Assembly (NCBI GenBank): GCA_030431825.1
Contig: JAUIIJ010000020.1
Coordinates: forward strand, 1-64,000
Source of the DNA: Alphaproteobacteria bacterium
GTDB lineage: Bacteria; Pseudomonadota; Alphaproteobacteria; Rhodobacterales; Rhodobacteraceae
Direction: 5' to 3'
DNA length: 64,000 nt
Notes under the pieces: generated by a model
Databases searched by the model: none
What the model saw: only the letters and a program-made list of their open reading frames with translations
What the model was told of the DNA's origin: nothing
In this document: piece by piece, positions 40,654 through 44,753 of the stretch
Numbering within the stretch: the stretch's first letter is position 1
Layout: each line of letters begins with the position of its first letter
Translations under genes and position numbers: made by a program

Positions 40654-41484
40654 GTGACGGAGCTTTCCGAAGTCGCGAAACACTATTCCAGCACTGCGCT
40701 GCTTGACCGTATAGAGGACGCCCTTGAAAAGGTCGGCGCGCGTCGGCCGCTGGATCTCGAAACCCTTGCGTTGTTCGACGAGTTCCATATCGGCGGGCGC
40801 AGGGCCACGCATCACCTGCTTGAAAAGCTGATGGTCTCGGCGGGCAGCAAGGTGCTGGATCTCGGATGCGGCCTTGGCGGCCCGGCCCGGTATGTTGCCA
40901 AGACCCGCGGCGCACGTGTCACCGGCCTCGATCTCAGCGCGGATTTTGTCACGGCGGGCAATGCGCTGACCGGTCAGGCCCTGATGGCGGATCTTGTCGA
41001 GTTGCGACAGGGCAGCGTGCTGGACATGCCGTTTGACGACGATCAGTTCGACGTCGCCTATATGATCCATGTCGGCATGAATATCTCGGACAAGCCGGCT
41101 CTTGCCGCCGAGGTTGCGCGGGTTCTGAAGCCGGGCGGCGTATTCGGCATATTTGACGTGATGGCCGTGGGCGACGCCGATCTGTCCTATCCGGTTCCGT
41201 GGGCGAGTGGTCCTGAGCAAAGCGCGCTCAGCCCGCCGGCGGCCTATCGCGACGCGTTGACGGGCGCGGGGTTCGATATCCGCTCGGAAACCGACCGAAG
41301 CGAATTCGCGCTGGAGTTTTTTGCCCGCATGATGGCGCGACAGAACAAGAGCGAAGGCCAGCCGGTGCTGGGATTGCACCTTGTGATGGGGCCGGAGGCC
41401 GGGCTCAAGATCAGCAACATGGTCGCTGCCCTGCAGGGTGGGCAGATTGCGCCGGTCGAGATGATCGCACGCCTTGGTTCCTGA
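40654..41484 (+). CDS. Class I SAM-dependent methyltransferase
   Basis: A 276-residue Rossmann methyltransferase: motif I SKVLDLGCGLGGPARYVA, motif II GLDLSADFV, motif III QGSVLDMPFDDDQFDVAYMIHVGMN, and LKPGGVFGIFDVM. The N-terminal VAKHYSSTALLDRIEDAL plus the overall arrangement resemble sarcosine/dimethylglycine and UbiE-like small-molecule methyltransferases; the substrate cannot be assigned. GTG start at 40654 follows GGGAG; an upstream GTG at 40630 is less likely. Confidence 0.85.
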   Translation: MTELSEVAKHYSSTALLDRIEDALEKVGARRPLDLETLALFDEFHIGGRRATHHLLEKLMVSAGSKVLDLGCGLGGPARYVAKTRGARVTGLDLSADFVTAGNALTGQALMADLVELRQGSVLDMPFDDDQFDVAYMIHVGMNISDKPALAAEVARVLKPGGVFGIFDVMAVGDADLSYPVPWASGPEQSALSPPAAYRDALTGAGFDIRSETDRSEFALEFFARMMARQNKSEGQPVLGLHLVMGPEAGLKISNMVAALQGGQIAPVEMIARLGS

Positions 41485-41655
41485 CTCGCAACACGGGATC
41501 GGCGGGATGAGACCCGCGGAACGCGCGAGACGATGACCGGGGCGAACGCCATGCCGGAGGCAGCCTTTTATGACGCCGGGCGCAGCCAGGGGTAGATCGC
41601 CCAACGGATCGGAGTGCCCGTTTTTACTGCGCGCCTGCGGCGCGTCCGGAGTCTC
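41485..41655. other. Non-coding stretch between methyltransferase gene and ileS leader
   Basis: No gene is seen. AACGG-N10-CCGTT followed by TTT near 41603-41625 may be a weak terminator of the methyltransferase transcript. The remaining 175 bp before ileS are described as the leader region. Confidence 0.35.
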
Positions 41656-41684
41656 TGGACCATCCGTTCGCCGCGCCCTATAAG
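41656..41684 (+). promoter_or_regulatory. Candidate promoter of the ileS leader transcript
   Basis: TGGACC (41656-41661), a 17-bp spacer, and TATAAG (41679-41684), the same -10 hexamer as the candidate hisB promoter. The expected start point (41691-41692) coincides with the A of the leader ATG, so the message would be leaderless. Confidence 0.45.
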
Positions 41685-41691
41685 CCGGATC

Positions 41692-41742
41692 ATGATGCGC
41701 ATGGTACGGATCATTATTCGAATTATATCCCCGGCGCTCTGA
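41692..41742 (+). CDS. Putative isoleucine-rich leader peptide of ileS
   Basis: A 16-codon frame, MMRMVRIIIRIISPAL, stopping with TGA at 41740-41742. Five of 16 codons are Ile (ATC ATT ATT at 41710-41718, ATT ATA at 41722-41727), in a strongly GC-rich genome where such an AT-rich string stands out. The frame lies 86 bp before ileS, and its last codons form the 5' arm of a strong hairpin. This is the layout of amino-acid attenuators. There is no strong ribosome-binding site, but a leaderless start fits the predicted promoter, as for trpL in alphaproteobacteria. Rival explanation: a chance AT-rich promoter segment. Confidence 0.55.
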   Translation: MMRMVRIIIRIISPAL

Positions 41743-41757
41743 CCCTGAGACGCCGGG
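41730..41757 (+). promoter_or_regulatory. Hairpin overlapping the end of the ileS leader peptide
   Basis: CCCGGCGCTC (41730-41739) pairs with GAG-A-CGCCGGG (41747-41757), 7+3 bp with one bulge. It includes the leader stop codon. A ribosome stalled on the Ile codons would occlude or free the 5' arm. No T tract follows, so it is either a pause/antiterminator element or acts on Rho access or ileS translation. Confidence 0.45.
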
Positions 41758-41828
41758 CAAAGGTGTTTGAGTGTTCGCACCGACCGCTTTCAATCCTTCC
41801 GACTTGACTGATCCAGAGGACGCCACCC

Positions 41829-44753
<2,925 letters not shown>

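Follow-up and report, generated by a model that had tools for sequence, protein, structure and literature searches.

The window, by which we mean the whole 64,000-nucleotide stretch of DNA analysed, carries at 41829–44753 on the forward strand the ileS gene for isoleucine–tRNA ligase, which matches TIGR00392 with 769.6 bits against a cut-off of 621.4. Upstream of it, a 344-nt intergenic region follows a methyltransferase gene on the same strand that ends at 41484, and holds a short translated leader. The features concerned are listed here with what each call rests on.

41656–41661, + strand: putative –35 hexamer TGGACC (sequence; conservation of best hexamers)
41679–41684, + strand: putative –10 hexamer TATAAG (conserved spacing to the leader ATG)
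41692–41742, + strand: leader frame MMRMVRIIIRIISPAL and its stop, leaderless type (sequence; frame conserved)
41710–41727, + strand: Ile window, codons –3, –2 and –1 (ATC ATT ATT), CGA, +1 ATT and +2 ATA (107 family-type leaders)
41719–41725, + strand: invariant core CGAAUUA, containing GA|AUU (IleS-selected relatives; hairpin-selected matches)
41730–41757, + strand: hairpin I, 4 nt 3′ of the core, with the UGA stop in its loop (covariation)
41762–41781, + strand: hairpin II, GGUGU..GA/UC..GCACC (most leaders of the family alignment)
41782–41814, + strand: C-rich, G-poor stretch 5′ of the Shine–Dalgarno sequence (composition in 102 leaders)
41815–41820, + strand: Shine–Dalgarno sequence AGAGGA of ileS (sequence; alignment columns)
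41829–44753, + strand: ileS (TIGR00392 match)

The first-pass annotation had placed a TGGACC-N17-TATAAG promoter before the leader, with transcription starting near 41692. This spacing indeed gives an expected +1 at about 41691–41692, and its relation to the leader is conserved: in 92 of the 113 leaders with a recognised box, 12 or 13 nt separate the T of the –10 box from the ATG, a distance that matches leaderless initiation, and the commonest best –35 hexamers among the 113 are TGGAC[CG] (45) and TTTAC[CG] (32). A strict sigma-70 scan of 41485–41900 returned no promoter and no terminator, and the promoter call therefore rests on conservation.

The frame MMRMVRIIIRIISPAL runs from the ATG at 41692 through 16 codons to a TGA at 41740–41742, with isoleucine at codons 7, 8, 9, 11 and 12, just as had been described. 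We collected 147 distinct ileS leaders, of which 113 had a recognised –10 box (the pattern found none in 34); six of the 113 come from other families, and the other 107 are referred to as family-type. The first ATG 3′ of the box is in frame with the invariant core in 113/113 leaders, and isoleucine accounts for 28% of the residues that precede the core (255/901) versus 20/788 and 16/788 (2–3%) in the other frames. With codons numbered from the CGA of the core, isoleucine occurs in the 107 family-type leaders 72 times at –3, 82 at –2, 76 at –1, 107 at +1 and 47 at +2, and is scarce outside this window (4/107 at –4 and 1/107 at +3), named contigs being assigned to the family by genus name in these counts as in the TTTT counts below. 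The Ile window was noticed post hoc, after inspection of the data, and lies outside the core pattern by which the leader sets were chosen; the leaders are related by descent, and exact P values mean little. Thinning from 113 to 103 less similar leaders kept the pattern (4 at –4, 62 at –3, 73 at –2, 66 at –1, 103 at +1, 42 at +2 and 1 at +3). Synonymous isoleucine codons are mixed among the 113 leaders, with 58 ATC and 12 ATT at –3, and 45 ATT and 34 ATC at –2. Conservation of frame, core and hairpin rules out a chance frame, while the varying synonyms and the displaced-stop leaders L036, L053 and L060, which keep the frame, rule out a conserved hairpin with an accidental frame. Judged from sequence, the isoleucine-rich frame before ileS is real and far beyond chance.

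On the same comparative grounds, the most conserved part of the module is the RNA core, CGAATTA-N4-hairpin, rather than the isoleucine run. Among 28 family loci selected only by IleS similarity, 25 have exact CGAATTA-N4-CCCGGC upstream of ileS, and in three (L013, L019 and L024) the module is absent there. When 198 family genomes were searched by the hairpin letters only, 74 matches were found in 73 genomes, with none for the reversed control, and CGAATTA stood four bases 5′ of the hairpin in 74/74; 58 of these coincide with rows of the core search, and the remaining 16 were fetched, all with CGAATTA. Searching with the core pattern itself matched 177/198 genomes of the family (control match in 6) and 68/289 of the class (control match in 11), some of these matches being chance occurrences in coding sequence (L034 and L039). 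Named records sharing the leader are Ruegeria, Sulfitobacter, Roseovarius and Paracoccus, and the family to which the genome of the window belongs fits Rhodobacteraceae. The first-pass annotation had suggested a comparison with relatives, and in it frame, isoleucine codons and hairpin are all kept upstream of ileS.

No synonymous codon replaces the CGA or ATT of the core in the 25 of 28 leaders that are intact or in the 74/74 hairpin-selected matches, which bears on whether the peptide, ..I-R-I-x-x-P-A, might stall its own ribosome and sense free isoleucine or some other signal. R, I, P and A are invariant in the 113 pattern-selected leaders, partly through the pattern itself, and likewise in the IleS-selected leaders with exact core. 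However, selection on the peptide needs neither an arginine that is always CGA nor a following isoleucine that is always ATT; the P and A codons overlap a hairpin arm, and residues +2 and +3 are variable. We regard such nascent-chain arrest as improbable.

Hairpin I pairs CCCGGCGCTC (41730–41739) with GAGACGCCGGG (41747–41757) and uses the last codons and the stop of the leader; proposed in the first-pass annotation, it is confirmed here by covariation, with 96.0% of cells paired and four pairs changed on both sides across 96 sequences. In hairpin II, pair 57–76 of the alignment is CG in 51, UA in 31 and UG in 3 of the 96. Taken together, the two hairpins are paired in 93.2% of cells and show two-sided changes in 81, with 0/500 shuffles comparable on four of five measures and 2/500 on the fifth, in an alignment that omits 10 of 106 leaders, namely six from other families and the family leaders L164, L184, L188 and L191, whose stretch after hairpin I is short or different, an omission that favours hairpin II. 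The predicted probability exceeds 0.5 for hairpin I in 99/102 leaders and for hairpin II in only 37/102, and the core is mostly unpaired in the folding average. Since the single-window free-energy z-score is only –1.8, the evidence for these structures is comparative, not thermodynamic.

A leader of this kind invites explanation by classical ribosome-mediated transcription attenuation, in which a stall at the isoleucine codons would block hairpin I, acting as pause or terminator, and RNA polymerase would read into ileS. A cognate-codon frame does adjoin a GC hairpin, and the target gene matches the cognate amino acid. However, the T-tract terminator that the first-pass annotation had found missing is indeed not seen in 41485–41900, and TTTT follows hairpin I in 0/95 family leaders. 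The antiterminator pairing 2:3, between the 3′ arm of hairpin I and the 5′ arm of hairpin II, was rejected as unsupported both by covariation, where 237/500 shuffles reach its score, and by simulated stalls, where its probability exceeds 0.5 in at most 4/102 states. The placement of the isoleucine codons in the family also argues against this explanation. A ribosome covers about 12–13 nt past the first A-site base; by that footprint, a stall at +3 would melt hairpin I, and isoleucine is found there in only 1/107 leaders, while it is enriched at –3 to –1, where a stall would leave hairpin I folded. Outside the family, attenuation fares better, with TTTT within 10 nt after hairpin I in 12/48 other-family ileS leaders (for example, L126 and L128 of Rhizobium) and isoleucine at +2 in 29 of the 48; TTTT is similarly placed in 5/27 leaders of the ACT-like genes described below. 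Thus, of the amino-acid attenuator proposed in the first-pass annotation, the isoleucine-rich leaderless-type frame and the hairpin stand, whereas the family has no U-tract and no supported antiterminator. We consider classical attenuation possible but rather doubtful.

The ileS start region was also evaluated by folding. Sequestration of the Shine–Dalgarno sequence, whose A-G-G-A columns reach at least 90% in the alignment of 96 sequences, was rejected, as its mean unpaired probability shows no average effect (0.43 free, 0.44 with a stalled ribosome and 0.45 with a ribosome at the stop). The start codon is predicted to be somewhat more open with a ribosome stalled (0.57) or at the stop (0.56) than in the free leader (0.46; 102 leaders), and translation may therefore contribute to ileS control. 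For the leader of the window itself, stalling shifts the predicted values from 0.64 to 0.23 for the Shine–Dalgarno sequence and from 0.01 to 0.60 for the AUG, and the stalled and stop states are the same. Alternatively, leader translation might govern the loading of Rho on the C-rich stretch before ileS, given that the region from hairpin II to the Shine–Dalgarno sequence averages 39% C and 16.5% G over a mean of 31 nt in 102 leaders. However, in the Paracoccus leaders L164 and L191, which possess the module, the ileS start follows hairpin I after only about 40 nt, and outside the family neither hairpin II nor the C-rich stretch is fixed, as judged by eye. We give Rho-dependent control little credence.

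Other alphaproteobacterial families likewise have the module before ileS. Reading 19 further genomes of the class by position identified the exact module in one (L096), CGAATTA with an altered hairpin arm in two (L091 and L098), a CGAATTC variant in one (L092) and no module in 15; L030, from a twentieth genome of the class, possesses it. The fetched loci contain 242 core matches (inter-collection duplicates included), of which 200 have the hairpin and an in-frame ATG within 120 nt; the 42 that lack the ATG frame or hairpin include 3 that precede ileS. By downstream gene, 190 of the 200 fall to ileS (143), an ACT-like gene (27), an ACT-like gene followed by ileS (1), an AAA_33 kinase gene (14), an NTF2-like gene (4) or an ilvA-like gene (1), in classes named after the loci had been inspected and with several of the 10 leftover matches at contig ends. 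The ilvA-like case is a single contig labelled Marinimicrobia, perhaps mislabelled.

The ACT-like protein scores under the cut-off of the Pfam ACT models; its structural model (mean pLDDT 81.8) retrieves ACT domains with Foldseek, IlvN being second, and relatives are labelled acetolactate synthase small subunit in some sources. Its 27 leaders have isoleucine at 25/81 codons from –3 to –1 versus 1/81 from –6 to –4 (23/69 versus 1/69 when thinned to 23 leaders). A TTGAC box occurs in 17/27, with an ATG 35 or 36 nt on in 14, and 24/25 ATGs at 30–41 nt from the box are in frame. The corresponding step is not significant in the 48 other-family ileS leaders (23/144 versus 13/144, p 0.11). Among individual ACT-type loci, L186 has the module, an ACT-like gene and then ileS in one apparent operon that links both targets; L255 and L257 have tandem modules with separate frames and hairpins before one ACT-like gene; and in L090, L120, L233 and L234 the frame extends well beyond the hairpin and may at its end run into the next gene.

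Core and hairpin also stand before the AAA_33 kinase gene in 14 loci, including L141, L154, L177, L038, L256 and L272, and these leaders retain the core but have no Ile window (1/42 at –3 to –1 versus 0/42 at –6 to –4). This, together with the fixed bipartite CGAAUUA-N4-CCCGGC and its free spacer, would suit a binding site for an unknown RNA-binding regulator, to which the Ile window adds a tRNA input in some branches only. However, we have no candidate protein, and mere binding does not need a core in frame with the first ATG in 113/113 leaders; this explanation appears to us an unlikely one. In one family of the class, the module precedes genes for NTF2-like proteins (L069–L072), of which DUF6841 exceeds its cut-off for L072 only among three tested.

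Matches and leaders elsewhere were also considered. A trpS leader was rejected as a second case, CGAATTA being absent from 12/12 trpS upstream regions; the only trpS-upstream frames with two or more Trp codons (L295) lie over 400 nt upstream and were taken as unrelated. Non-alphaproteobacterial matches without an in-frame ATG (13/119 stretches), including a planctomycete palindrome, were likewise set aside as unrelated. In the planctomycete contigs L134, L135, L146, L166 and L187, and likewise in L198, L199, L202, L205 and L216, copies of CGAATTAAAA[GT]CCCGGC are followed by an AT-rich palindrome, and 7 of the 10 share a GAATT/GAAAT box ~10 nt upstream of the repeat; these copies are an unrelated repeat or terminator family.

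The reading that we prefer, which draws on sequence comparison and which we hold as plausible though somewhat short of probable, is that the leader senses isoleucine tRNA, in that ribosomes which stall on the isoleucine codons would mask the core and thereby raise ileS expression. Transcription would start at the A of the leader ATG, and scarcity of charged tRNA-Ile would slow ribosomes at the isoleucine codons. With the A site at any codon from –3 to +2, a ribosome would cover GAAUU, and at –4 it would not: across this window, the leading edge is expected at about core nt +3 to +18, lying at +3 to +4 for an A site at –3, as against 0 to +1 for one at –4. The Ile window of the family would then equal the set of stalls covering GA|AUU. 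Stalls at –3 to –1 would leave hairpin I, whose first base is nt +11, in its folded form, and only those from about codon 0 onward would open it; for this reason we place the switch on the core rather than on the melting of a terminator. Bare core and hairpin I together would be the target of a negative factor, from which masking would spare the mRNA; RNase E stands first among the candidates, since GA|AUU suits its preference for AU-rich sites. For RNase E, a preference for AU-rich sites is described in R. sphaeroides and one for a U at +2 in E. coli (PMC6238624), and stalled ribosomes can mask RNase sites, with a longer half-life for ermC (PMC7509114). The sign of the response, with starvation leading to more ileS, would follow the logic of synthetase control. 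An older terminator logic may still operate in the other families, where U-tracts after hairpin I are commoner.

Masking of the core is consistent with a frame kept in 113/113 leaders, an Ile window from –3 to +2 and the same step in the ACT leaders. It also accords with constraint at the RNA level, in that the 25 intact leaders and the 74 hairpin-selected matches show no synonyms for the CGA and ATT codons, and with a core predicted to be mostly unpaired beside two covarying hairpins. The targets, ileS, an IlvN-like ACT protein and one ilvA-like gene, fit isoleucine sensing. The stall window fits the ribosome footprint in the family and the ACT leaders, but not clearly in the other-family ileS leaders, where isoleucine at +2 (29/48) and TTTT (12/48) fit terminator melting better. 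RNase E alone does not account for a CGAAUUA whose C and final A are invariant, for a spacing fixed at 4 nt or for the letters CCCGG/CCGGG. The kinase leaders, with isoleucine at 1/42 codons from –3 to –1, keep the core without the Ile window, and 3/28 family ileS genes lack the module altogether, which further count against masking.

A broader reading, which we advance only tentatively, would see an alphaproteobacterial isoleucine regulon on one translated module, with the stalled ribosome shielding a site of cleavage or binding in a codon-gated manner. The CGAAUUA-N4-GC hairpin, read as Arg-Ile-x-x-Pro-Ala, might conceivably let such a mask replace terminator and antiterminator, and it is possible, if uncertain, that ileS, the IlvN-like ACT gene, ilvA and others share the module as members of this regulon. 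If true, alphaproteobacteria would sense charged tRNA-Ile by means of a translated RNA module that is compact and works without a terminator or a riboswitch. The regulon would span several orders, which from genus names we take to be Rhodobacterales, Hyphomicrobiales, Caulobacterales and Rhodospirillales, and an unnamed ACT protein family would gain a likely role. The leader would also offer a simple system for how a leaderless mRNA ties codon hunger to mRNA fate, with the invariant core as a sharp handle for mutation.

Among known systems, the trp, ilvBN and pheST attenuators are alike in having a short cognate-codon frame, a hairpin over its end and a target in the matching pathway; unlike them, the ileS module has an invariant RNA core at the control codon, and in the family its control codons are bounded at –3, which sets it apart from classical attenuators. 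The trpL/rnTrpL leader of Sinorhizobium meliloti is a terminator-type attenuator and differs in its Trp codons, and the stall in the ermC leader is drug-induced, whereas a hungry-codon stall is proposed for ileS. The former is nonetheless alike as a leaderless leader-peptide mRNA of an alphaproteobacterium (PMC10117765), and the latter in the proposed logic, by which a stalled ribosome protects the mRNA (PMC7509114). Synthetase genes under attenuation include pheST and Streptomyces trpS and leuS, and in Actinobacteria a T-box stands upstream of ileS (PMC1262725). The T-box is alike in making ileS control dependent on tRNA-Ile; unlike it, sensing at the present ileS would go via a translated frame. 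In an Rfam cmscan of 41400–42000 that admitted E values up to 5, the only match was a weak one to a family other than the T-box, and among 18 related loci there was no T-box or other match at the gathering score. Another comparable case is CCNA_03934 of Caulobacter crescentus, an ‘ileS leader CDS’ from a ribosome-profiling study (PMC4117421) whose accessible part names the CDS at ileS without sequence, motif or mechanism. A Caulobacter sp. MAG (L219) has the module before ileS, and CCNA_03934 is presumably the same module. A literature search, with subscription journals mostly outside its scope, returned no account of how an ileS leader works in this group. Overall, leader-peptide control of amino-acid genes is already known, and it is the module that looks new, together with its Ile window and the set of genes that it targets.
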